Below, in pieces: positions 16,708-60,451 of a stretch of DNA of 64,000 bases (positions are counted from its first letter, which is position 1; the number at the start of each line of letters is the position of its first letter). The stretch is from NCBI GenBank assembly GCA_029204225.1, contig CM055097.1:39981106-40045105 (forward strand). The letters run 5' to 3'. Under the pieces are notes generated by a model. The model was not told the origin of the DNA and ran no database searches. It saw only the letters and a program-made list of their open reading frames with translations. The position numbers and the translations under genes were made by a program. Source of the DNA: Diphasiastrum complanatum. Taxonomy: Eukaryota > Streptophyta > Lycopodiopsida > Lycopodiales > Lycopodiaceae.

Positions 16708-18703
<1,996 letters not shown>

Positions 18704-37231: not shown

Positions 37232-40200
37232 CTGCAAGCAACAAGAGAAACGTCAGCTCAAATGTTAACAACACATCAAAAAAAGACTTTAGTGAATAAG
37301 GAAATTGATATCAAACATAGCACATTATGAGATAATTCACACTTTCTGAATTGATCCACCACAAACACATTATGCTTCTACCTAAGTCACCAAAAGTTAC
37401 ACAAGATATTCGTTAGGACAAATGCAAATAACCTTGAAAGGCAGAGCCATTTGGTTTAAGAACACCTTATATCAGAAGCATATACAATCTTAGAACATGC
37501 AAAGTCACTGGAAATGATTTTAGTCCACCAAACCTGTACAGATGCAATTTCCCCAGATCTTTCATGCTCTAACAGATCCCTTATGGGTAGATAAGCTGCT
37601 TGCTTACACAGCTCCGTGAGGTCAGAGCCACTATACCCATCACATAAACTTGCCAAGTAGTCCACATCCAGGTTGTCCTCTACGTTCTCCTCTTTCAAAA
37701 TGACCCGCAAAATACTTGCTCGTTGCAAGGCATCTGGCATCCCAACCTCAAATGCGCGTGGAAGCCGCCTCAAGATTGCTTCATCAAGATCCCAAGGTCT
37801 GTTAGTCGCCGCTAAAACCATCACTCTAGCATTTTCTGCAGATCGGTGATAAGAACAGTAATTTCAGTGTGCATGCATCGGACATGTGATCCAGCCTTAA
37901 TTTTAAGCATCTCAAACAAAAATCAGATGACATACATAATGGATTTCAACATATTTGGAACCAAAGGCGTCTCGCACTTCACATGTAGTCTCTCTATAGT
38001 AGGCCAGATGATCATCACACTTAAACAGAAAGGGCTGCTTTTTCCTATGCCTGGTACATATGTACAGAACAAAAATTACAGAAAACTGAAGGCTTCTCCC
38101 ACTTGGTGAATGGCCTCTATGTCTTGAGAGAGAGAGAGAGAGAGAGAGAGAGGTGTCAACTTTATTTTTTAAACATTGTGCTCCATATACAGGCGTGAAG
38201 TCAATATAATTGTGTTCATGTGGCAATTAAGGCCAAAAATCAGTCAATTGAATGTCTATTGATACTGAGATACTGCTTCCCAGCCAAGATATCTTGATAT
38301 ACAAGGTTTTAAGTCCCTGAATTTCTAAATTCATTGCTTGCTCATTGCTCTAGCTGTCTACTTTGCGTGCAAGATGTTAGATTCCCTATGAGTTGAAGAA
38401 AAAAAAAAACTAGTAGAGGGGTTTTTGAAATTATCCTATTGATAGCAGATTCTAGTTTTAAGTGAAAGGAAACTAAAAATACTTCAGTCTTTGAAGTGGC
38501 CTTCCACCCAATACTATTTTCGTGCATTCTGCAGATGCCTTTGATAAAACAAAGCCTTTAAATGTCATTTAAACCTGCACTATTCATTTCTGAAAGAAAA
38601 CTCCTTCCACTTTCCAAAACTCCAGTTGATGCTTTTTCGACCTTAATGATTGAACACAATCCCAATAGGAAGAAACCAGAATACTAATTGCACACAATTT
38701 TGCTATTCCTAAACATTCGAGGTCAATAAAGCATTATGCCTACAGCTATCTAATGTCTTGGACTACAAAAATTTAAGGGCACTGTGAAAAGGTGAAATTA
38801 TGCAAAGACAACAGGAATGTAGTTGCTTACGGTCGGTTGTAAAACCATCCCAAAGAGCCATAAACTCCGTTTTCATATTTGTTACAGCTTCATGCTCTGT
38901 GACTCTACGCTGCCCAAGAAAGCTGTCAACCTCATCAATGAATATAATGGCTGGCTGAAGCTTGTATGCTAAGGTAAAAAGTGCAGTTACTGCAAATTTA
39001 ACCAAAGGACTGTTTGTTAAATGTCAAGCAAAGATACAATTTAAAAGAGTAACTACTCATAGCTTCAATTACTCAAAATTAACCACTTGAAGACTCATAT
39101 ACTATAATTTTATTGAGAACAAGACTCGTGAGTATGTATAGTTTCACGACAACCAAGCTTCCCACATGTCAATGAGAGCTTGGTGATCTCAACCCATCAC
39201 ACCCTTCAAAGGTTGTGCCATCCATGATTGATCTAATTGATTGTTAACATCGCTAGACTTGCAGGTTAGAAGTTTCTTTTACAGAAACAAAATTATTCTC
39301 TAAAATATATGCTCATTACAACATTCTTTTATGACAAGCTACAAGAGAGACAAATGTTGTTAAAACTTAATGGAAGCAGGTGTGTATGTCACTGGCCATG
39401 TCAAGTCTAGGTGAATCATGATTACACAATCATTTGTTGATGTTGGCAAAAGGACTTGGATAGGAGAATTTGTTTACACTTATATCTGGAGTTAACTGTC
39501 AAGATGAAGCTTAACTACATAACGCAAACTGCAAAACATCCCAGTATTGCAACTAGAAATAGATTTCTCTGGAAGTCTACTATTATCATAACTCTATAAA
39601 TGACATCATAAAGATAATATGATGTTCAGGTCTTAGCTTCCTATTTCAAGCTGAAGAGTGGCCTTCACCTACCCCAGGAATGGATGACTTGTCTCATCAC
39701 TCCAGCCAGCAGCCAGAAGTTAGATCAACTTAGCAGCAAATCATTCAACAATCAAAGTTGCACTGCGTGATTATGTACTAGTTTTGCCCAATCGTGTATG
39801 TTAATAAAGAGGAACAGCCAAAACGAGTACAAAAGGTAATCCCTTTCACATGGGGCCTGCTTTAAGATGAACAATTAGCTACAAATAAAAGTAATTAAAT
39901 ATGCAACCAGAAACACTTTACAATCATAGCGATTATTATTGCTCATCTTAGGTTAGTTTGCTGAAAAAATTCCTCAAATCATTTTCGCAAAAAGGTCAAA
40001 AAATCATGCCCACAGAACTATGCTAGCATGGCAGAGCTAATTTTCTTGAAAAAGGGCCACAAGGAAATGTGCGGTAACAGGTCCTAATTGGTAGTTTGTA
40101 CAGCACTATCTGAAATTTACACTGCTGTTAAGTCAAAATAATTTGTGCAATGTGTACTATCAACTTGAGCACCTAGTGAAGGCCACAGAAACTTTCCTTC

Positions 40201-43200
40201 ACTAGCCAGATGAATGGATCTTCAATATAGCAATATTTGACAATAACTGTTCCGGTTGTCGTTACTAAGGTTCTTCATTTTGCAGGAAGTTGTTTAAATA
40301 TGCATTGCCATCAAGTCAAGGCTGGCACCTGAACAAAACATTCAATGGAGCCCGTCCATATAGTACCACACCATTAACACCATTATGCATAGCAAAGATT
40401 GACTACAACATTTCTGCTCGTGTCACCAATGCCCAAGAGTAGGTGCCAAGCTTCCATCGCTCACAAGCACAAAGATGTTTCAAATTAGGTTTTATACATT
40501 CCAATATTGTACAAAGACTGATGTGCCGGGCTTCCATCGCCTGGTGATGGAGAACAGACTAGAGCAAAGCCAATCAAATGAAATTCTTACTTCCTCATGG
40601 AAAGATAGGGCATACAGCAGATAATCACTACAACTTGCTCAAACAAAGCTAAACCTAGAGAGTAGCTGATAGGTTTCCAGCTTCAACTACATTCGCTTTT
40701 TGAACAGTGGGTCAAACTTTTTTACAGTTCACATTTCATATCCTTCTGCCAGGTATTATTTTCACATATCTTCTGCCGAGAGTCTCCTGTGGTTTACCAG
40801 TGCCTCCATGCATTCTTTCTTGATTATTTATAAGTGGATTCTTACTTAATATTTCACAAATGGTCTGCAGAAATTTTATCATCTTCGGGAATTTTACTTC
40901 TACTTTCTTTGTTGTGAGAGTTGAAAAACTTCAGCCAATCAACAAGTCCACAACGGTCCAGTCCAATTTTTCACACAATCCTCAAAACTCTATTGCCTCA
41001 TTCCTAGGGTTATCAACTCTGGCACTGCTAGTTTCAATTATTAAATCATTCCAGCAAATCTTCAGTGTGCATTGTGTCTAAACCGTTCACTGTAAGATGA
41101 GTGGCCCAACACCTCCACCATCTGTCCAACTGTTGCAAATGTTCACCACTCTGACCATTCCCAACTGCTCCTATTTGTGTAGAGCAGCAGTACTTAAATA
41201 GAACTAAAAAGGTGAGCATCTGACTGTTGAGGCTCACAAGACTAGCCACATATAATGACACATATTTACTGTTGGAATGTAAATGGAATTGCTTACATTA
41301 CCATAGGTTACTTTGACCCAACAGGTCGAGAGTTGTGTAACCATGGTTTATTTATCTCCATTAGGTCTACTAAACTTAAAGTTAGCTAAGTTAGTATGTT
41401 CTTAACTTAGTAGGGACTCGTGGGTCTGTAGGAAAGCAAGAGTCAAGTCACCAAGATCTAGTTATCAATCAATCTCCACAAGAAACAAGAAAGAAGAGGC
41501 TGGGCGCCCAACTCTAAGAGAGAGAGAGAGAAAACAGCAACAAGAGCAATGGAGAGCAATGCTTAGCCAAACTATAAAATGTGACACAATAGGCCAATAT
41601 GTACTCTACCTACTTACTGATTGTAGGGCACCCCCAAAAGTCAAGATAGGGCCCCTAAACAAAATTAGACCCCTAAGGACCCACGAGTCAGTACATGACC
41701 AAAATTGGGTCCAACTGAACTTAAGACAAACTTAAGATGGCCTAAATAACTAAATACCCATGGTTACACAAATCTCGATCTTTTGGGTCAAAGTAACCTA
41801 TGAATTAACTTCAGCATAGTCATTTATTTCTAACACCCTCTCTATGTGATAAAAGCAACACGTGGTATTAAATTTAAAGCTTTGCATACCACTTCAAATC
41901 TGACTCTAGGCAATGCCTTAGTGAAGAGGTCCGCAATATTATCCTCTGTAGGACAATACTCAAGTAAAATGTCGTCATCATGAAGTCTCTCCCGAACAAA
42001 GTGATAATGGATTCGATGTGCTTCGTCCTCGCATGAAAAACAGGATTCCGTGCAATAGCAATAGCACTTTGACTGTCACTCAAGATAGGAGTGGTTGAGG
42101 GCTCGCCAAACTTCATGTCAACAAGTAGTCTTCTCAGCCATAAACACTCTGTTGTGGCTGAAAATATCACTCTATATCTTGCCTCACTAGAAGAAGGAGC
42201 AACAATGGGCTGCTTTTTACTTGACAACGAAATTGCAGAATTTCCATAGAAAAAGCAATGTCCACTTGTAGAGCGTCTAGTGTCCGATTTAGCCTTCATA
42301 GGATAGATCCATGTAAAACGAGAAAAATCATCAATAAAAGTCACAAAATAGATGCACTTTCCAATGGATTCGGTCCTCATTGGACCACAAAGATCACTAT
42401 GAACCAAATCAAATTTATCAAGAACCCTTATAGTTCCATCAATTGGAAAAGGTTTCCTTTGAAACTTTCAGTATGCACCCCTCGCATACATGCCCTTCTG
42501 GCTGCTCAATAGTAGGAATGTCTTCTACCATATTAAATGTCTTCAGCTTCTTCAAACTTGCAAAGTTGAGATGCCCAAACCTTGTGTGCCACAATTCAAC
42601 CAGCTCCAATGATTGTGATGTAGAAGCAACAAGACATGTAGAGGAAATTCGTCGCTCATAGGTATCCAGCATGCATTGTTCCCGAAACAATAATCAAGAG
42701 TGATCTTTTAGGATCCTTGACAAGACACTTACCTTCTTTGAACTCAACAACTAGTCCTTGCTTCAACATAGTTGAAACCGAAAGAAGATTCTTCTTGATT
42801 CCCGAAACATAAAGCACATTCTTAATGTACTTTTCTTCACCATTAGGCAGAATGATGGCTACAATTCCAATTCCATGAATAGAATAAGATGCATCATCCG
42901 CACATTGTACCTTACTTCCATTTTGCACTTTCACTAATTTAGTGAATGCTTCTTTGCGAGAAGTCATATGACGAGTAGCACCACTACCAATCACCCATTC
43001 AATGGGCTGAAAATCAGCAACTTGCAAAACAGAACCTAAATTCCTCCTAGATGTAGAAGTACTAGTAGAAGCAATATTAGACACAAAAGCATAGTCTTGG
43101 TTAAAGAGATCCCCACTAGCGTCAAGCTCTTGCTCCAAAGTAGCAAGTGAAGCATCAGTATCAATTCCTTTACTCTCCTCTTTCGCAAGCTTCATCTTAC

Positions 43201-46200
43201 AATCCTTGATGAAGTGCCCATACTTCTTGCAATAATGGCACTTCCCTTTCTTCTTTTGAGTGTTGACATCTTGACCTCCAACGGGCTTTTGCTCATCCTT
43301 GGAAGGAGGCTTCCCCTTTCCTTTTGACTTGCCTTTGCCCTTGCCTTTCGTGAAGAAAGCTTGATCTTGTTGAGCGTCACCCGCAAAATTTTGCCTCATT
43401 TGCTCTTCTTGAAGAAGCAACCCAACAAGTTCATCAAAGGAGAGTTGATGTCTCCTAAGAGAGATACTCAAAGACGAAACAAATGAAAGATAAGAGGAAG
43501 GTAATGAGTTGAGAGTAATGGAAACAAATTGAGCATCCTCAATTATCTCATCAATATTGAGAAGCTCCTCACGAAGGTCCTTGATCTTCGTCAAGTGACT
43601 GGTCACTTGATTCCCTTCTTGCATCTTCAACAAAGAAAGCTGATTTCTGAGATACACCACTCTTGCTGGATTTTTGACTCAGAATGTGCTTGTGCATCCC
43701 TTCTATCCCACTTCTTTTGTTCTTCCGAAGATGGAGAAGATGATGTTGATGATGATGATCCACGAGGTGTAGGAGGTGCCAAAGACGGAGGCCTTTCCTC
43801 ATCACCAATGACCAAATCCCACAGCCCTTTCGCTATGAGAAGATTCTTCATCATGTAACTCCACAAGGAGTAGTTTGTGCCATCCAACCGATCTTCACTA
43901 AACAAAGAACCGATACCTTCCGATTCTTTAGCCATTACCTCCAACAGAATTTCAACTTGTAGTAGATAGGAAAGAGAGCCTTTCCACAACCAAATCTACT
44001 CAAAAAATTTGCAGCAAACAAAGAGCTGAAAGTAGGAGCACAAGATGTCTTTCAATCTACAACCAAAGTGCCCAAAAGACAATGGATAGATGGCTGTCAT
44101 TCTGCACAAAAAAGCCAGCTTCTTGAAAATTAGGTTACCTTCGATTGAAGCCTACACCAAAACCCAATTAAGAAGCCAAATAGTGTGATCGACACACGCT
44201 CCAATAGGGCTATTGAAAGCGCCCTACTGCTTGCGGAGAATTTGCAAATTTCCAGCCACAAGTTGACCTAACCCTGAATAGGGTTTGCTGAATTTTGGGT
44301 GCCCTCCTACACAAATGCAAACTTGAAAACAAAAACAGCACAACCAAAAATCAGTAGCAGATTTTTGGGCGCCCTCCTCCAAACAAAACTTGCTGAAAAC
44401 TGGTTGCATAAAAATCAGATTTGAGATTCTAATTTTTGGGTGCCACAAATTGCTCCTCCAAGATCTCTGATGGGTGCCCTCCTTCAACCTAAAAAGGGAC
44501 AAAAAAGCTGATCCAAACTCCACTTGGAAAGATCAACAGGATGCTGAAATTTCACAACAAAAGCAGAGAAGCTCCCCTTATGGTAGGGCGCCAGCATACA
44601 AGCTTGCTACAGATCCGATAGCTCTGATACCATGTAGGAAAGTAAGAGTCAAGTCACCAAGATCTAGTTATCAATCAATCTCCACAAGAAACAAGAGAGA
44701 AGAGGCTGGGCGCCCAACTCTAAGAGAGAGAGAGAGAAAACAGCAACAAGAGCAATGGAGAGCAATGCTTAACCAAACTGTAAAATGTGACACAATAAGT
44801 CAATATGTACTCTACCTACTTATTGACAATAGGGCACCCCCAAAAGTCAAGATAGGGCCCCTAAACACAATTAGACCCCTAAGGACCCACGAGTCATACA
44901 TGACCAAAATTGGGTCCAACTAAACTTAAGACAAACTTAAGATGGCCTAAATAACTAAATACCCATGGTTACACAAGTCTCGACCTTTTGGGTCAAAGTA
45001 ACCTATGGATTAACTTCAGCATAGTCATTTATTTCTAACAGGGTCCACTATGCCTAATTGACATCTGGAGGTACCTTATTCTTTTTATGTAACTTATAAA
45101 AAGTTAGATAGTCATAGAAATTGAATAGTCAATGGTCATGAAGTTGGATAGTCAATAGTCATGGCGTTGGATAGTCAATAGTCAAGAAGTTAGATAGTTA
45201 TTTTGAAAGACTATGTATATGTGCATCTTTGTTGTATCATTACTATTCTCCTTGGCTGTCCACGAGTTGAGAATGCTTCGTGTGATTGAGTAGTTAAGAT
45301 CCTGGATCCTTAGGCTTCTATTTCCTACATGGTATCGTAGCCATGGTTGTGGGTGTGGTCTAGATGGGCGGTAGCCAAAAAGGGCTATGCCTTGAGGGGG
45401 AGTGTTAAAAAGTGTCGAGGCTATAGCCCTTGCACAACATTTTAGGAACACAAATGGACGGGTAGCTCAGTGGTAGAGCACCCCACTGGAATGGGGGAAG
45501 TCCCAGGTTCAATCCCTAGCCACACCAAGTGTAAAAACTTTTCAACTACTCTTTGTGATACTACATGATTAAGAACCTTCTTATTGCAGAAGGTTTATGG
45601 GAAATAGTTAATGGTGACGAAGAGAGGCCACCTACCTTGGCACCTACTACACCAACTAGAGCAACTACTTCATCATCAACGGTTGTGTCTTCCGATGAGC
45701 AAAAGAAGTGGGATCGACGAGATGCACAAGCACATTCCGTCATTGCTCAGTGAAGAAATCTATCCTTCCACATATTAGATCTTGATCTTGAAGATGCAAG
45801 AAGGTGATTTGTTTATGAACCACTTGACGAAGATCAAGGATCTTCGAGAGAAGCTTCTTAGTGTCGATGAGGTGATTGAAGATTCACAATTTGTATCTAT
45901 TAATCTCAACTCTCTTCCTAATTCTTACCTTCCCTTTGCGTCATCATTGAGCATTTCTCTTAGGGGACAACAAATCTCCTTCGACGAACTTGTTGGCTTA
46001 CTTCTTCAGGCTCAACTTTGGTGAGCAAGAAGATCAAGCTTTCTTTGCAAAAAGCAAAAGTGAAGGCAAGTGGAAAGGGAAGCCTCCAAAGGTGATAAAA
46101 AATCTAAGAAAGCTCAAGATCAAGGACAAGGCTCCAAGAAGAAGGGTAAGTGCCACTATTGCAAGAAGTTTGGGCATCACATCAAAGAATGTAGGAAGAG

Positions 46201-51968: not shown

Positions 51969-54900
51969 TGCATACATATGTATTTAAGTATGTATATATG
52001 AACACGCGTATACTTATCAATGTGTGTTTGTTCCATGAAATTTTAATCATCACTCGCAAGTCAAATAATCTCACAAAGCTATCTCAACTAAATCCCACAC
52101 CAAATTAGGCACCAAATATCCACTTTATTGATTTCTTTTAAAAGTACATATCAAGATCCTAGCATAAACAGGTAAGAGCACAACTGCTAAGTCTCCTTCC
52201 AGCCACCTACTACGTAGTAGAAAGATGAGACATACTCAAGAGGCTCCCCCTCTTAACCTCCCACACCCTCAACCCTGACTTGTCCTATCGTCAACACATG
52301 GCATACTCCATGTACAATTGAAATTTGCCACTTGGCAGTACCCTAACACATAGGTAAGTGAAGAGGATCGTCTTACCTGTGTCACTCATAAATTGGACCA
52401 AGTGTCACAATGAGCATATGACGGGTGTACTGTTGTGTCAGGCTTTCCCTCAACTCCTAACCGACACCCGTACACTGATTACCACAAAACTTTCCTCCCT
52501 TTGATTCCCTTTAAGCACAAGCATCAAACATAGACACACAGTGGAGTTGGCTGTGTCGTCTCCTCCCCTTTGCTGCATAGATCACGATGAGGAATGCATC
52601 TCTCTAGGCTCTCTTATCCATGAACGTCAAGCACCCCTCAACGCTGACCCTTCCTATCGTACACATGGGTAATTCCATGCACAGTCGACGCTCGCCACTC
52701 GGCAGTACTCTGCCACATAGGTAAACACGTAAGTTGACATGTGTCACTCATTCACTGGACCAAGTGTCCCAGTGAGCATATGACATATGTCCTGCCAATG
52801 CTCTTTCAGGTTTGTGCATGACTGCTAGATTTCAATCCCCACATGTGCAAGTGAAGATATCTTCTATCCTTGTGGGGTCCTTGTTAAAAAACATGCCAAA
52901 CCAAGTTCGGAAGGCAGATTTATGACCATCGTCTTCATGAACTCTAACCTGATGATACCCACTCTTCAAGTCTATCTTACTAAACACAGTAGCACCATGA
53001 AGAGCATCGGGCGTGGCATAGGATATCGATGCTTGATAGTTAATAATCCACACACATATGCAAAGACCCATCCTTCTCTTTTACTAGAATGATTGGCAAG
53101 GCAAAAGTCTGATTGATCTGCCCACGTGCAAGATAATCCTCTAGCATCTTCTTCACCTCCTCTTCGTCTCTCAAACTCATTCTATAAGGTGGTTTATTTA
53201 CAGAACAAGATCCTAGAATAAGCTCAATCTTATGTTCAACATTTCCATTAGACGGTAATGCAGATGGCAAAACATCAGTAAACACATCTTCAAACTCACT
53301 CCTAATTTCATGGTCTAGGTTAGCTGAAGTATTGTCTTGCACCTACCACATGGTACTCTCACTAGTACTAGTAGCCATATCTAGCAAAAAAAAACATACA
53401 TAGTACATACTTTCACAACTTACCTTACACTTACCTTGCGCAACTGCAGAGCTGAGATTAGTAATCGTAGAGACACATCCCGCTCACCACAAATGGAATG
53501 AAGCTTACCACCATGCTGAAACTCATACACGTGAGTATCCCAAGCCATGTAAGGCTACCGCATCGCATACCAACAGATCTCCAGAATGACATCAAAGTGT
53601 GCCAAACGAGTCATCTCAAAATCCAACTCCTCAAAATAACTCTGAATAGTTAAGGGCATACTCACAACCCTCATGTCCCAAATCTTCGTACCCTTTCCAT
53701 CAACCATTTCAACTGTGTACTGGTACTTGGATGGTTGTGTGCTCACTCTTGACTTTTATCAAGAGTTGAAATAATGACATTATGCGAGGACCCAATGTCA
53801 AATTGAACTAATATATCTCTACCACGAAGCTATCCACGCATAACTATCAAAGAAGTGTCAGAAAATTGGTACCCATGTTGTGTCGCTTTTGACAATGTCA
53901 CTGGAGAAGTCGTGTCCACCTTTCGCACCACATAAACATTCCTCAACTGAAGAACATCAGGATTAGCTTCTTGTTGTTGGAATATCAATCCACACTCTAG
54001 AGAGAACTATCAAACAGGGCGGATAGCTCAGTGGTAGAGCATCCCATCCGATATGAGGGAGGTCCTGGGTTCGAATCCTAGTCTATCCATCCATATTATG
54101 ATTTATGGATTTCTAACATGGTATCAGAGCCAAGTTAGACCTAATAGTTCATGGTGTCAAAGCCATGGTTAGGTGGCCCAAGTTGTGGGGCAGGTGACAG
54201 CTAGGACCCCAACCAAGTGTGGCTTGAGGGGGGGGGTTGGAATATCAATCCACACTCTAGAGAGAACTATCACACAGGGCGGATAGCTCAGTGGTAGAGC
54301 ATCCCATCCGGTATGAGGGAGGTCCTGGGTTCGAATCCTAGTCTGTCCATCCATATTATGATTTATGGATTTCTAACAGTTGCTAGATCTCCTCTACTTC
54401 CATTGGCTGCTATTGTTGCTCTACTTGAAGGTTATAGGTGGTTCTCATCTAGTTACGTGGACATTCCTTCCACCGATGTTGTCCATCCAAAGCATAAATT
54501 CTCTCTTTTTGCCCGCTCTTGGTCCTGTGATGACAATGTAGAGCGTTGACCCCCTTGGGCATTAGGCCGCCCATACGACCCTTAGCCTTTTAGAGCACCA
54601 ACCTCTTTACCCATTTGGCCACTTGGAACTTGCCCTTGTCCTTGTCCTGCCCTTCACATTTGGCCTTTGACCTTCTTGAATTCGCGCTTACCCCAAGGCA
54701 TTTGGCCTCTTTGAGGCTGACCCAAAGGTTCTTGCAGCTGGTTCGTGGGACTTCTTCCCATCTTCATAATAAATAGCCATCTGAATGACATTCTAGAGAG
54801 TATGTGTTTGCTCTTTCCGCACAAAAGCCCGCAAACTCTCCCTAAGTCCTTCAATGAAATGAAACACCTATAAATACATAGGCGCTTCGTCAGGAATTCT

Positions 54901-57900: not shown

Positions 57901-60451
57901 TAAGTGAGCACTATTGAGCATTACAATATTTCTAAAATGCATTCCAAGTATCTCTGCTTCTACATACCAAGCTTTTGAGCATCCCCAAACCACTTGCTCA
58001 TAAGAGTCGCGACCCGAACGTTAATGAAAACAGCTTGAGACTCCTTAGCAATGGCCTTAGCAAGTAATGTCTTGCCTGTTCCTGGAGGTCCATATAACAA
58101 TACTCCCTTCTGAGGGGCCAAAAGTTTCCCATGTGCAAAAAGTTCTGGGCGCCGCAACGGTAGAATAACTAGCTCATGTAGAGACTGCTTCACTTTCTCC
58201 AAGCCTCCAATCGAGTCAAAGGTCACATCAATATCCTCTGGATTAATAACATCACAAGCTATAATGTCCTGCACCACCAATTCAGAAATATTGGCTTCAT
58301 CAAAATCTTGAGTATCACATGAAGAGAACCTCAAAGACAATAGAACAATACCAAAGTAAAGTAAACAAGAATTCAAATATTTTGGCAAAACTCCACTACT
58401 TACATTGGGCACGGGACATGATATTTGATTTCTAACGTATTCAAACTCTCAAAGGCTGAATGTTACTTGTAGCATATAACCTTGACGATATGGTCAGTTG
58501 TTGCTGTTTATTGGTTAAAATTGGACGCATTAAATGCCATAATCTGCCTTACTATTTTTAGTAAGACAGCTTTGAAGGGTGCAGGCGTTTCTACCTTTCA
58601 AAAGTGAAAGGTGCAGGCGTTTCGCGAGAGAGAGAGAGGCTTCAGCGGACAGCGCCATCGCTCCTCTCAGCCAAAGAGTGGGAGCTTGGAAATTGCAGGC
58701 TATTCTTGTTACCAATCTTCCTGCAGCATTTGCAGCGATGGTTAAGGAGCAGAATTGACTCGCTCTTCTGCACGTCTTCCTCATCCGCCTCTTCCTGGAT
58801 TGTGCAGTTGTCTATTGTAGTTTCTGCGCTCTTTTTGTATTTGAGTACATTAAGTACTGGATGGATGCCTTAGCTGATAAAGAAAGCAGCAAGTGGATTT
58901 GCAGTCTGAGAGATCGTGGTGTGAAGAATGATACCTTTTGAGTGGTGTTTCATTCTTCGTTGTATCATTTGGTTTGATTTTCAGTGATCTTGTTTCCGTT
59001 TGGCTTGATTTTCATATATATTGTAATAATTTGGCAGAAATTGTGTTTTCATTTGGCCTGATTTTCATTAATAATGTAATCGCTTGGTTTGATTCCATTC
59101 GTAATGTTTGGAAGAAGTCTGTGCTTCTTGGTATCTGCAACGACGCCACGCTTCACAAATTTCTGAATCATTCTGGAAGCGAACAGTGGATCAATTTCAG
59201 TAGTGAGGCTTCAAATGAGAATGTCTTCTCAATAAGCGAGGCAAAAACGGTGCTGACTCTGCTGCTTTGTCTCCCCGAGAGAAAGTGCAACCTAGGATAC
59301 AAACTGTTTACTCTTTGTGACTTACGTCCTCTGTGACAGTCCTAAACCTTGCATATCACAGTTATCGCATTCCCAGTACAATGCTACAATGCTTCAGTCT
59401 AGACAACATTTGAGAGCTCTGAGTGAGTTTTCAGCAAATTTTTTCTTCAGATGGACAATATATGGCCATTTCTCGGTTGACCAACCTTCTAAAAATCTTG
59501 TACGCCTCTTCTCAGTCAATCTCCAGAATGCTCTCTCTCTATCTCTCGCTCTCCCTCTCTCTATCTCTCGCTCTCTCTGTCCGCCCCCTCTCAATTTATC
59601 TCTCTCTCTCTCTTGAATGGCACCATCTGACCATAACGTCAAATAACGGGCCCTCCCGTTATCTAATACATAAGCAACGCACACATTTTCTTTAATCAAA
59701 CTTATATAATAACTAATGCACCATAGGGCCTAAAACCTTTCAATAAATTGGAAGCACATGTCCATAAAAAAGATAGCAAAACAAGACCGATAAAATAGAA
59801 TCCGTCATATGACACTTAGGGCCATAGTAGCTCATGCACACTTCATAAGAGGGAGAGACATGAACAAGGCTACAGAATGTTGGCAACATTGTAAGACTAC
59901 CTCATACAAGCAGTAAATTGATCACTTGAAGGTGCTTCTTATAAGTGCTCTAGCGGAACAAGAAGTCGGAAGTCTGAATAAGCATTGCTGGAAAACAGTT
60001 TGTTCTCATGATTTGATAACCTGCTAGTTGATTGAAAAATAAAAGAATCTCTGTAGAGGGCTTGAGAAACGGATCGGACTATTAACTCAAACCGACCAGC
60101 CATGCTATTGGACACAAAAAGCTATAGAATCATGAGGATCCAATAATGTATCCGTATTCAACCAGTGCTAACAAGCCTCCTAGATTCAATCCAATCTACA
60201 TCCAACAATGTCTGCGAAGCAGTAACCTAATTCTGAAAGCTTTCATGAGTGCACACCTCATAAATATTCGTCTGCGCAACGGAGCGGCCCAAGCGTTTGG
60301 CAATCTCCTTCTTTCGCTCCGCTGCTTTCTTGGCTTGCGCCCGATTGGGATCGAGATGCCTGAGGCCCACAAACAGAACCAGGCAGCTCAGAGCGGCACT
60401 GACTGCATAAAGAAAGAGCTCCTGCCCTATCGAGGCTGCTCTACTCCCCAT
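37016..60451 (-). CDS. MSP1: MSP1/ATAD1-type AAA ATPase of the outer mitochondrial membrane, five exons
   Basis: This family of membrane-anchored AAA ATPases pulls mislocalised tail-anchored proteins out of the mitochondrial outer membrane. Minus-strand exons are 60257-60451, 57968-58268, 38831-38989, 37534-37835 and 37016-37231. They total 1,173 bases and join in frame to 390 residues, close to the family's usual length. Exon 1 gives an N-terminal membrane helix (about residues 12-31) and a basic linker. Exon 2 carries the Walker A motif GPPGTGKT at 125-132. Exon 3 carries Walker B (IIFIDE, acidic pair at 184-185). Exon 4 carries sensor 1 (N230 in TNRP) and the arginine fingers at 241-242. 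Exon 5 is the C-terminal helical region. All introns are GT-AG. Intron 2 is 18,978 bases and full of retrotransposons; intron 1 is 1,988 bases. No coding lesion was seen. The start was chosen at 60451 because the family conserves the sequence immediately after it. Confidence 0.95.
37534..37835 (-). CDS. MSP1: MSP1/ATAD1 exon 4: sensor 1 and arginine fingers
   Basis: 302 bases, resuming in the split glutamine codon after TCTGCAG and ending in phase 0 at GTTTGG. It encodes [19 protein letters not shown], the two adjacent arginines that act in trans on the neighbouring subunit, and the lid segment [20 protein letters not shown]. Confidence 0.95.
38831..38989 (-). CDS. MSP1: MSP1/ATAD1 exon 3: Walker B
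   Basis: 159 bases, entering with two bases that complete a valine codon and leaving with one base of a glutamine codon. It encodes [20 protein letters not shown] and [12 protein letters not shown], both hallmarks of MSP1-type ATPases. The acceptor is TTTGCAG and the donor GTAAGC. Confidence 0.95.
38990..41264. other. Unassigned left part of MSP1 intron 2
   Basis: Contains only short frames. Ends at the TTTAC target site of the outer copia element. (The shorter intron between exons 3 and 4 holds a GA tract at about 38125-38151.). Confidence 0.4.
41270..41426 (+). repeat. 5' LTR of the outer copia element, first part
   Basis: Starts TGTTGGAATGTAAATGG and aligns with the start of the LTR at 50205, with few substitutions. 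Broken off at GGGTC by the nested element. Confidence 0.93.
41874..42407 (-). pseudogene. Integrase-RNase H fusion frame created by internal deletion
   Basis: A 177-codon open frame. It opens with SDLCGPM and [22 protein letters not shown] from the integrase core. It then passes without a stop into [23 protein letters not shown] and [15 protein letters not shown], the RNase H C-terminal half. Everything between in a normal element is absent. It reads as one open frame but lacks complete catalytic domains. Confidence 0.9.
42656..43989 (-). pseudogene. Gag-protease region of the nested copia element
   Basis: Begins near 43930 with MAKESEG and continues [18 protein letters not shown], then, after a frame change near 43640, the gag domain ([19 protein letters not shown]). 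A zinc knuckle follows, [14 protein letters not shown] (CX2CX4HX4C) near 43195-43240. The protease motif [11 protein letters not shown] sits near 42985. The catalytic aspartate (normally DSGAT) reads glycine. GAG-pre-integrase sequence follows to about 42656. Confidence 0.9.
45041..45329 (+). repeat. 5' LTR of the outer copia element, second part
   Basis: Resumes with the duplicated GGGTC and then matches 50360-50721 (TCTGGAGGTACCTTATTC, the GTTGGATAGTCAAT repeats, GGCTTCTAT...CCTACA). It is shorter than the 3' LTR because it lacks two internal stretches. It ends directly at a primer-binding site. Confidence 0.92.
45330..45544 (+). mobile_element. TRIM B: internal region and 3' LTR, 5' LTR missing, fused to the outer copia LTR
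   Basis: The outer copia LTR ends at 45329 and is followed at once by the primer-binding site TGGTATCGTAGCC. Next come about 60 bases of interior, a polypurine stretch (TTGAGGGGGAG, to 45402) and an apparent LTR, 45403-45544 (TGTTAAAAAGTG...CTTTTCA, 142 bases). Copia gag sequence (NYSL, a stop, then YMIKNLL) starts on the very next base. The interior resembles TRIM A (GCCATGGTT, then G-rich, then CTTGAGGGGG). The copia leader and the first part of gag are absent. The 5' LTR of the TRIM is also missing, consistent with recombination between two primer-binding sites. Confidence 0.75.
45456..45527 (+). tRNA. tRNA-like sequence inside the TRIM B LTR (probably a polymerase III promoter, not a working tRNA)
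   Basis: 72 bases with a D arm (GCTC/GAGC), an anticodon stem CCCC/GGGG, loop CTGGAAT (GGA in the anticodon position with U33), and a T arm with TTCAATC. The A box is TAGCTCAGTGG and the B box GGTTCAATCC. The acceptor stem pairs at only four of seven positions, so a charged tRNA is unlikely. A TTTT terminator lies 12 bases downstream at 45539-45542. Confidence 0.6.
45545..46625 (+). pseudogene. Gag-protease region of the outer copia element
   Basis: Fragments in several frames: [51 protein letters not shown], the gag core with [18 protein letters not shown], a zinc knuckle [14 protein letters not shown] near 46150-46190, and [11 protein letters not shown] near 46428 (protease, with the serine of DSGA changed to arginine). 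It is closely related to gag of the nested element, so both belong to one lineage. Confidence 0.9.
46735..47709. mobile_element. Solo LTR, 975 bp, inside the outer copia element
   Basis: Interrupts the host frame between SLMIIV and GTLRGGLFL and is flanked by ATCAT on both sides (46730-46734 and 47710-47714). It begins TGTTAAGAATTT and ends TACGTGACA, fitting TG...CA. No coding sequence or second LTR lies within it, and it matches nothing else in the window. A TATA-like CTATTTAAA is near 47472. Confidence 0.85.
47715..48975 (+). pseudogene. Integrase region of the outer copia element
   Basis: GAG-pre-integrase ([28 protein letters not shown]), then integrase core segments [10 protein letters not shown] and FVTFIDD. 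After a frame change come [10 protein letters not shown] and [15 protein letters not shown] (catalytic D and E regions), [31 protein letters not shown] and [18 protein letters not shown]. Frame breaks near 48115 and 48205 disable it. Confidence 0.92.
48976..50200 (+). pseudogene. Truncated and rearranged pol C-terminus of the outer copia element
   Basis: Begins [12 protein letters not shown] and [17 protein letters not shown] (start of reverse transcriptase), then jumps directly to [20 protein letters not shown] from the far side of the domain, so the catalytic palm is deleted. From about 49,540 a second, diverged copy of the linker follows ([14 protein letters not shown], then [10 protein letters not shown]). 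No RNase H is recognised before the polypurine tract. Confidence 0.8.
50205..50721 (+). repeat. 3' LTR of the outer copia element
   Basis: TGTTGGAATG...AACCTACA, 517 bases. Contains three or four near-repeats of GTTGGATAGTCAATGGTCAT near 50458-50520. Followed by the target-site duplication TTTAC. Confidence 0.93.
50727..51345. other. No recognised gene
   Basis: Short frames only, between the outer copia element and copia fragments. Confidence 0.4.
51350..51598 (+). pseudogene. Ty1/copia reverse transcriptase fragment
   Basis: Reads [30 protein letters not shown] and IRTVYALI, the first third of the copia reverse transcriptase, followed by stops. Confidence 0.88.
51600..51890 (-). pseudogene. 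Ty1/copia RNase H C-terminus
   Basis: On the minus strand: [14 protein letters not shown], then [19 protein letters not shown] and [14 protein letters not shown], the end of copia pol. It abuts the plus-strand fragment at 51350-51598 tail to tail. Confidence 0.85.
51904..51962. repeat. (TC)n microsatellite
   Basis: About 29 TC units. Confidence 0.95.
52075..52810 (-). repeat. Gypsy LTR region, 3' side of copy B, with an internal duplication
   Basis: 52081-52300 aligns with 55945-56200 (ATCCACTTTATTGATTTCT, AGCCACCTACTAC, TAGTAGAAAGATGAG, CCCCCTCTTAACCTCCCAC). Within it, 52277-52441 recurs in diverged form at 52645-52798 (CACATAGGTAA, TGTGTCACTCAT, GACCAAGTGTC, GAGCATATGAC). Confidence 0.75.
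52811..53345 (-). pseudogene. Ty3/gypsy reverse transcriptase, first half (copy B)
   Basis: [56 protein letters not shown], then [19 protein letters not shown] and [11 protein letters not shown]. It stops before the catalytic YVDD, where LTR-like sequence begins, so the rest of pol is deleted. Confidence 0.92.
53555..53830 (-). pseudogene. Ty3/gypsy protease region (copy B)
   Basis: On the minus strand: [12 protein letters not shown], where the aspartate begins the aspartic-protease active site, then [14 protein letters not shown] and [10 protein letters not shown], the conserved end of the domain. Separated from gag by the inserted TRIM. Confidence 0.75.
54017..54089 (+). tRNA. tRNA-like sequence in the left LTR of TRIM A
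   Basis: 73 bases that can be drawn as a tRNA: acceptor GGGCGGA with TCTATCC (one mismatch, two G-U), D arm GCTC/GAGC, anticodon stem with one mismatch, and a T arm CTGGG/CCTAG around TTCGAAT. The A box is TAGCTCAGTGG and the B box GGTTCGAATCC, a perfect match to the consensus. Position 33 is C rather than U, so translation use is doubtful; a promoter role is more likely. Confidence 0.6.
54277..54349 (+). tRNA. tRNA-like sequence in the right LTR of TRIM A
   Basis: Differs from the left copy at a few bases. Here all seven acceptor positions pair (GGGCGGA with TCTGTCC, two as G-U). The loop reads TCCGGTA, which would place CGG as the anticodon. The A and B boxes are the same as in the left copy. 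No TTTT terminator follows within the LTR. Confidence 0.6.
54560..55483 (-). pseudogene. Ty3/gypsy gag (copy B)
   Basis: Minus-strand frames give a coiled segment ([20 protein letters not shown]), then [18 protein letters not shown], and [24 protein letters not shown]. The gag core follows with [27 protein letters not shown], as in retrotransposon gag proteins. Frame breaks lie near 55100 and 54860. Confidence 0.75.
55484..55940 (-). other. Gypsy leader region
   Basis: Between the gag frame and LTR-like sequence. No clear primer-binding site was found. Confidence 0.4.
55941..56500 (-). repeat. Gypsy LTR between copies A and B
   Basis: Aligns with the LTR-like sequence at 52081-52300. It lies 5' of the gag of copy B and 3' of the RNase H of copy A, so it could be a shared LTR. 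Confidence 0.65.
56600..57240 (-). pseudogene. Ty3/gypsy reverse transcriptase second half and RNase H (copy A)
   Basis: Reads [41 protein letters not shown] (catalytic DD), then [55 protein letters not shown] (RNase H) and YPTHEQELY. Homology starts abruptly at about 57236. Integrase is absent. Confidence 0.92.
57337..57967. other. Right end of MSP1 intron 2, nothing recognised
   Basis: AT-rich, ending at the exon 2 donor. Confidence 0.45.
57968..58268 (-). CDS. MSP1: MSP1/ATAD1 exon 2: Walker A
   Basis: One hundred codons plus one base, entering after the acceptor TGGTGCAG and leaving at GTATGT. It contains the family signature ACDVINP, the N-domain SIGGLE, Walker A GPPGTGKT, and the pore-loop region [12 protein letters not shown]. 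It is separated from exon 3 by the 19 kb retrotransposon-filled intron. Confidence 0.95.
58269..60256 (-). other. Intron 1 of MSP1
   Basis: GTGTGC donor and TGGTGCAG acceptor. Contains a TC-rich stretch near 59525-59615 and short frames that I take to be chance. Confidence 0.85.
60257..60451 (-). CDS. MSP1: MSP1/ATAD1 exon 1: membrane anchor
   Basis: Sixty-five codons ending in phase 0 at a GTGTGC donor. The hydrophobic run [19 protein letters not shown] is the single transmembrane helix. It is followed by HLDPNR and a lysine/arginine-rich linker typical of plant members. An in-frame ATG lies 31 codons further upstream, but the extra residues do not resemble the family, so the inner ATG is preferred. 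Confidence 0.93.

Follow-up and report, generated by a model that had tools for sequence, protein, structure and literature searches.

Which element moves a retrotransposon without genes of its own? TRIMs carry no genes, and the element that mobilises them is mostly unknown. The excerpts of Gao et al. 2016 (PMC4717578) used here report a larger related element in 11 of the 289 subfamilies of plant TRIMs, and those of Kojima 2024 (PMC10886601) give no indication of a mobilising element for Cassandra. A 404-bp TRIM in a 64,000-nucleotide stretch of Diphasiastrum complanatum DNA (the window) raises the question in a particular form, with a tRNA-like sequence in both of its LTRs: what kind of element is it, what promotes its transcription, and which retrotransposon mobilises it?

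Structure of the TRIM in the window

The sequence at 53975–54378 comprises a 144-bp LTR, a 116-bp internal region, and a second 144-bp LTR (404 bp). Its features (family A) and those of a second, related TRIM piece in the window (family B) are as follows.

53975..54118, + strand: 5′ LTR, 144 bp, TGTTGG...TCTAACA (repeat comparison)
54017..54089, + strand: tRNA-like sequence of the 5′ LTR, LTR positions 43–115 (ARAGORN; Rfam tRNA, 45.5 bits)
54119..54131, + strand: primer-binding site (PBS) TGGTATCAGAGCC, directly abutting the 5′ LTR (read from the sequence)
54119..54234, + strand: internal region, 116 bp (sequence)
54226..54234, + strand: polypurine tract GAGGGGGGG, G-rich (read from the sequence)
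54235..54378, + strand: 3′ LTR, 144 bp, first base G, not T (repeat comparison)
54277..54349, + strand: tRNA-like sequence of the 3′ LTR, 73 nt (ARAGORN; Rfam tRNA, 49.8 bits)
45330..45544, + strand: family B TRIM piece, internal sequence at 45330–45402 and one LTR at 45403–45544
45456–45527, + strand: family B tRNA-like sequence (Rfam, 44.3 bits)

The LTRs of the family A copy differ at 4 of 144 positions and start 260 bases apart. We take the PBS TGGTATCAGAGCC to be of the initiator-tRNA-Met type; its first 12 bases are shared with a Copia element in the window (44632–44621). Within the tRNA-like part of the 5′ LTR, box A is TAGCTCAGTGG (54024–54034) and box B is GGTTCGAATCC (54068–54078), and a CAA triplet occupies positions −6 to −4. 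ARAGORN assigned the tRNA-like sequences at 54017–54089 and 54277–54349 to Ile(GAT) and Thr(GGT), respectively.

An earlier reading of the window from its sequence only had described a TRIM with LTRs that carry a tRNA-like gene and had proposed running tRNAscan-SE and Infernal on the LTR. An Rfam search matched tRNA in both LTRs (45.5 and 49.8 bits), above the gathering score of 29, and the coordinates and lengths given in that reading (144-bp LTRs, 73-nt tRNA-like parts, PBS, and polypurine tract) were reproduced. With a short LTR pair, a PBS, and a polypurine tract in less than ~1 kb, which is too small for the usual proteins, 53975–54378 is a TRIM carrying a tRNA-like gene in its LTRs, as that reading had held. 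Three tRNA matches were obtained in the whole window at Rfam gathering thresholds, all in TRIM LTRs; such LTRs may thus inflate tRNA gene counts.

No target-site duplication surrounds the window copy, the flanks of which (CTTGT/GTTGC) show 2 mismatches. Dispersed copies and target-site duplications were found across the family, with the window copy as an exception.

Copies in the genome and target duplications

The genome searched comprises 1.74 Gb in 5176 contigs, many of which are tens of megabases long. The search with the whole element gave 1231 candidates, the best 40 of which were scored and contained 47 matches across many contigs, and the search with the LTR gave 1566 candidates, the best 40 of which were scored. 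The last 21 bases of the LTR occur in 1260 exact copies, and the LTR–PBS junction in 572, both strands included; the junction pattern has 22 bases, 9 of them from the LTR, and the TRIM internal region was present at 30 of the 30 places fetched. A two-LTR copy contributes two LTR ends, so the figures of 1260 and 572 require few solo LTRs. We observed one solo LTR that has a duplication (L035).

We fetched 68 loci (8 from the whole-element search, 30 from the LTR search, and 30 from the junction pattern), 59 of which were distinct by their flanks. The 47 that were complete at both ends were retained, and the 12 incomplete loci were left out. The complete loci comprised 41 with LTR-internal-LTR structure, 4 longer arrays, in one of which the middle LTR is broken, and 2 single LTRs (one within a rearrangement). 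Exact 5-bp duplications flanked 33 of the 47, an exact 4-bp duplication flanked 1, duplications with one mismatch flanked 7, and none was scored at 6, including the window copy; L038, also scored as having none, shows the duplication GTGCT when the outermost LTRs are taken. In mismatched pairings of flanks, which served as a control, exact 5-bp agreement occurred in 4 of 2162. The 5′ and 3′ LTRs differed by a median of 2.8% (range 0–13.9%, n=41); ages and solo counts are biased because the element and LTR searches yield the most similar copies and the junction pattern requires an exact match.

The sequence-only reading would have been refuted if the 260-base period existed only here and no other genomic copy had two LTRs with target-site duplications, and it had suggested counting copies with 5-bp duplications; the count above answers this in its favor. 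The two direct repeats, each with a tRNA-like sequence and boxes A and B, would also be expected of a tRNA-derived SINE in a local tandem duplication that merely resembles a TRIM. However, SINEs have no LTRs, no PBS, and no fixed 5-bp duplication, whereas this element shows an LTR-internal-LTR layout with a PBS and polypurine tract in place and 5-bp duplications at many places, and it is joined to Copia sequence at the PBS (see below). Dispersed two-LTR copies with target duplications rule out a local SINE duplication, which we regard as practically without probability.

The tRNA-like sequence and its possible role as a promoter

Among 82 LTRs, ARAGORN called Thr(GGT) in 66, Ile(GAT) in 8, and other isotypes in 6, and made no call in 2. 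As a tRNA of a single isotype, the tRNA-like part is not credible. The 66 Thr(GGT) calls would be in line with a dispersed family of functional tRNA-Thr genes borne by LTRs; however, the calls differ among copies, the window 5′ LTR copy has non-standard acceptor pairs, and Kojima 2024 (PMC10886601, excerpts) rates Helenus, a group of TRIMs with tRNA-like LTRs, as less likely to expand functional tRNAs. We consider such a gene family very improbable. As the source of the tRNA-like part, tRNA-Cys was also tried, using three sequence patterns, and was rejected with 0 genome matches.

We then have to consider that polymerase II transcribes the LTR and that the tRNA-like part is a relic of a captured SINE or tRNA with no role as a promoter. 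The lowest-energy fold of the 3′ LTR tRNA-like sequence is a cloverleaf; however, its stability is similar to that of shuffled sequences (z −0.55). The 5′ LTR sequence does not fold into a cloverleaf (z 0.24), and one family B copy gave z −1.17. The mean non-consensus value across the 82 LTRs was 0.021 in the tRNA-like part (0.015 in box A and 0.020 in box B), against 0.013 in the first 42 bases and 0.007 in the last 29 bases. Selection on boxes A and B through lower variability was rejected because both boxes vary more than the flanking LTR parts. TTTT does not occur in the TRIM element, which is not significant because 60.6% of shuffles also lack it, and TTTT avoidance was rejected as a sign of polymerase III. 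In family B, TTTT immediately precedes the PBS, which should hinder polymerase III. All of these observations suit a relic transcribed by polymerase II.

On the other side, both families retain boxes A and B, and their LTRs match tRNA cleanly in Rfam. When one LTR of each family was compared, 56 of 72 aligned positions were alike in the tRNA-like part, against 14 of 26 downstream in the 3′ LTR part; upstream, 30 of 36 were alike, with several gaps, one of 15 bases. The CAA triplet directly before the tRNA-like start is present in the LTRs of both families; CAA in this place suits plant polymerase III genes. Polymerase II transcription past a relic is a real possibility, which we hold to be the less probable one. 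The captured tRNA-like gene probably serves as a promoter in the LTR, and transcription of the TRIM by polymerase III is plausible, if unproven.

A separate observation was made at C10:31627550-31628900 (L103), which contains 971-bp tandem units. Each unit joins a piece of TRIM LTR, which begins at tRNA position 1, to another retroelement's pol end, LTR, and leader (by eye). If the start point of this piece were the RNA 5′ end, the transcription start would be marked there. We rejected an RNA 5′ end at tRNA position 1 (LTR position 42/43) as a result and retained it as a lead only: the two units form one array and represent one event. Other truncated TRIM LTR pieces begin at LTR positions 13, 16, 26, 30, 38, 90, and 101.

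Hybrids between the TRIM and a Copia family

The Copia family that forms hybrids with the TRIM has a copy in the window, at a distance of 9 kb from the TRIM.

41427..45040, − strand: Copia element, 5′ LTR at 44633–45040, 3′ LTR at 41427–41835, PBS core at 44632–44621

Its LTRs are 408 and 409 bp long, and GACCC is present on both flanks. It is shorter than a hybrid-borne copy elsewhere and is probably internally deleted. Retrotran_gag_2, Pol_BBD, and gag_pre-integrs were matched in Pfam in three of the four frames tested, besides DUF4219/gag_3; frame 41877–42407 had no Pfam match. The TRIM LTR does not match the LTR of this Copia at E values up to 10, and in the internal region only the 12-base PBS core TGGTATCAGAGC is alike, which becomes 15 bases at joints with the preceding ACA.

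Joints of two kinds were found. The TRIM LTR is joined to the Copia leader at 8 loci, seven of which were read (L069, L074, L075, L081, L086, L094, and L095) and one of which was recognised from coordinates (C17:36318975, where LTR L109 is followed by a match to the leader from the leader-gag search). The opposite joint, from the Copia LTR to the TRIM internal region, was read at 2 loci (L114 and L115). Genome counts of the corresponding patterns are upper bounds. The TRIM LTR followed by TGGTATCARAGCT of the Copia leader has 104 exact matches; of two such places fetched blind, L110 has a TRIM LTR before a different leader, and L111 is not a TRIM LTR. The Copia LTR followed by the TRIM internal region has 25, an upper bound for the partner Copia since only 9 Copia bases are in the pattern and the end of one other LTR in the window is alike; the same applies to the 533 exact matches of the Copia LTR followed by its own PBS.

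Composites that are complete with outer duplications are L069 (TAGAT) and L038/L074 (GTGCT). L069 consists of a TRIM LTR, the Copia leader and first part of gag (Pfam Retrotran_gag_2, 1.7e-33), TRIM internal positions 74–116, a TRIM LTR, an internal region, and an LTR. The search with the leader and gag gave 2201 candidates, the best 40 of which were scored. At 20 sampled loci beyond L069, the leader was preceded by a TRIM LTR at 4, by a Copia LTR at 15 (one with a deletion), and by a rearranged Copia LTR end at 1 (L097). All four TRIM-headed loci run 500 bp further into Copia gag. Three of them were sampled at the 3′ end, with the middle unread (C4:71314885, C6:19783494, and C6:13725907), and all three have a Copia 3′ LTR there. 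At the two C6 loci, this LTR runs directly into TRIM sequence from the PBS, while at C4:71314885 other sequence comes after it, and the TRIM LTR of that locus is preceded by TRIM internal sequence with the polypurine tract. TRIM internal sequence also precedes the TRIM LTR of the fourth locus (L108).

By coordinates, 6 of the 25 joints of the Copia LTR to the TRIM internal region lie within 10 kb of a same-strand joint of the opposite kind, when compared with the first 100 of the 104 matches (C1:47.07, C4:45.79, C6:13.72, C14:20.04, C17:13.82, and C20:27.21 Mb). In two of these six, the joints are ~250 bp apart, which is near the combined length of one TRIM internal region and LTR. At C2:31.01 Mb, a joint of the Copia LTR to the TRIM internal region lies between two TRIM LTRs that are ~5 kb apart. 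The switch points from gag to TRIM are AGG.GACA in L069 (7 of 8 bases shared) and GGTGACA in L070. The family B piece in the window also looks like a TRIM/Copia hybrid, with a foreign LTR end (..TTTCCTACA followed by TGG) before it and gag-like sequence after it (both by eye); the family B LTR–PBS pattern, taken from a single copy, occurs exactly at 2 places in the genome.

The C1 loci L070, L071, and L072 represent copies of a single event, in which ~400 bp of Copia gag is replaced by TRIM internal positions 74–116, an LTR, an internal region, and most of an LTR; the template was probably a TRIM multimer. Sequences other than the partner Copia also follow TRIM LTR pieces (L103 and L110), and this Copia may not be the sole TRIM partner. 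Five matches to the pattern of a TRIM LTR followed by a GCT leader, 4 on the + strand and 1 on the − strand, lie within 340 kb at C5:50.61-50.95 Mb among the matches listed, perhaps as a segmental repeat.

Origin of the hybrids and mobilisation of the TRIM

The hybrids may have arisen by DNA recombination after integration or by nested insertion, in which case they would be uninformative on co-packaging. Some loci are complex, such as that with head-to-head pieces (L075), one array joint (L074) may be a nested insertion, and the outer duplications of the two long C6 heterodimers could not be read. However, the TRIM and Copia LTRs do not match, and at the loci read, the joints sit in the 12 shared PBS bases (15 with ACA). 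With so little shared sequence, DNA recombination at this number of loci is less likely. A nested Copia would be expected to have its own 5′ LTR and a duplication, both of which are absent at the joints read, and the composites L069 and L074 have a single duplication outside all LTRs. We regard recombination or nesting as improbable. The TRIM/Copia joints are best explained by a switch of template between two RNAs that share a particle: PBS joints occur in both directions, outer duplications are present (TAGAT and GTGCT), and the switch points show short homologies. At L075 (C6:14183235-14188378), head-to-head TRIM pieces lie beside the Copia leader, a layout that simple template switching does not explain.

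In the mechanism that we propose, TRIM RNA would probably start at or just before the tRNA-like sequence, and initiator tRNA-Met would prime it at the PBS. The Copia family with the same PBS core would supply the enzymes, package the TRIM RNA together with its own, and reverse-transcribe it. The TRIM would then integrate with 5-bp duplications, which were observed, and reverse transcriptase may switch templates between TRIM and Copia RNAs in one particle and produce hybrids. A natural inference is that ordinary TRIM copies, too, are moved by this Copia. Taken as a whole, we are fairly confident in the explanation of a non-autonomous Helenus-type TRIM (TRIMp3) that has a captured tRNA-like gene in its LTR, probably as a promoter, and that is probably mobilised by a Copia family sharing its PBS core. 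Through the hybrids, a candidate partner can be named for a TRIM with tRNA-bearing LTRs, and co-packaging becomes testable.

A further step is more speculative. Polymerase III RNA from a tRNA-type promoter may be the genome of an LTR retrotransposon and be co-packaged with the polymerase II RNA of one Copia family, with frequent recombination at the PBS replacing the Copia 5′ LTR with the tRNA-bearing LTR. We offer this tentatively, as conceivable rather than expected; if true, Copia elements would arise that are headed by a tRNA-gene promoter.

Comparison with known elements

TRIMs with tRNA-like LTRs are already known as Helenus (PMC10886601), and the addition of the present study is the hybrid evidence for a Copia partner. 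This was the only paper found with "Helenus", "retrotransposon", and "TRIM" in the open-licence literature searched. According to its excerpts, Helenus elements are short and have LTRs with a tRNA-like sequence and boxes A and B, a PBS, and a polypurine tract, with 5-bp duplications in fungi and plants; the sole plant host in Table 1 is Selaginella moellendorffii. The present TRIM shares these features: ARAGORN makes a tRNA call for 80 of 82 LTRs, boxes A and B are present in the window copy (TAGCTCAGTGG and GGTTCGAATCC) and in similar form in one copy of family B, and 5-bp duplications of the plant and fungal type are present. The assignment to Helenus is by features; the LTR and internal region are 120 and 85 bp long in S. 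moellendorffii, and 144 and 116 bp here. The same excerpts note tandem arrays for LTR-11_DR, propose multiple origins of Helenus, and likewise do not show actual polymerase III transcription. They also tie fungal Helenus to Copia through the PBS and, in one family, internal similarity, whereas here the link is drawn from hybrids of TRIM and Copia; "chimer" as a word stem is absent from the main text of PMC10886601.

Cassandra (PMC7215508, excerpts) is likewise a plant TRIM with a polymerase III gene in its LTR, the PBS TGGTATCAGAGC, and long tandem arrays, and the comparison with it in the sequence-only reading was apt. However, the Cassandra LTR contains 5S rRNA sequence, whereas the LTR of the present TRIM contains a tRNA-like sequence, with Rfam matches to tRNA and none to 5S.

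Sabot & Schulman 2007 (PMC1950507) described three-LTR complexes with outer target duplications, explained them by switching between two packaged RNAs, and cited VejuL and BARE2 as formed by template switching. Their four complexes from Triticeae (two of Angela, one of Squiq, and one of Opie) have like LTRs, whereas the present hybrids combine a TRIM with tRNA-bearing LTRs and a Copia with non-matching LTRs, joined at the PBS. Gao et al. 2016 (PMC4717578) also sought autonomous TRIM partners and reported tandem TRIMs and 5-bp duplications; in the excerpts used, their partners resemble the TRIM in both LTR and internal sequence, unlike the present Copia, and "tRNA" has 0 occurrences in the main text. 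Tandem LTR retrotransposons in plants (PMC11899658) similarly form arrays that share LTRs and are taken as single insertions; the abstract concerns ordinary LTR retrotransposons and has no tRNA-like LTR. Alesia was rejected as a name for the TRIM, since in the excerpts found it appears with papers on LTR-retrotransposon lineages.

Other sequences in the window

Fragments of an actin gene and of AAA-ATPase-like genes (the latter by eye) are present on the − strand at 16887–18464, 38763–39005, and 57960–58412. The actin fragment matches the actins of many eukaryotes about equally.
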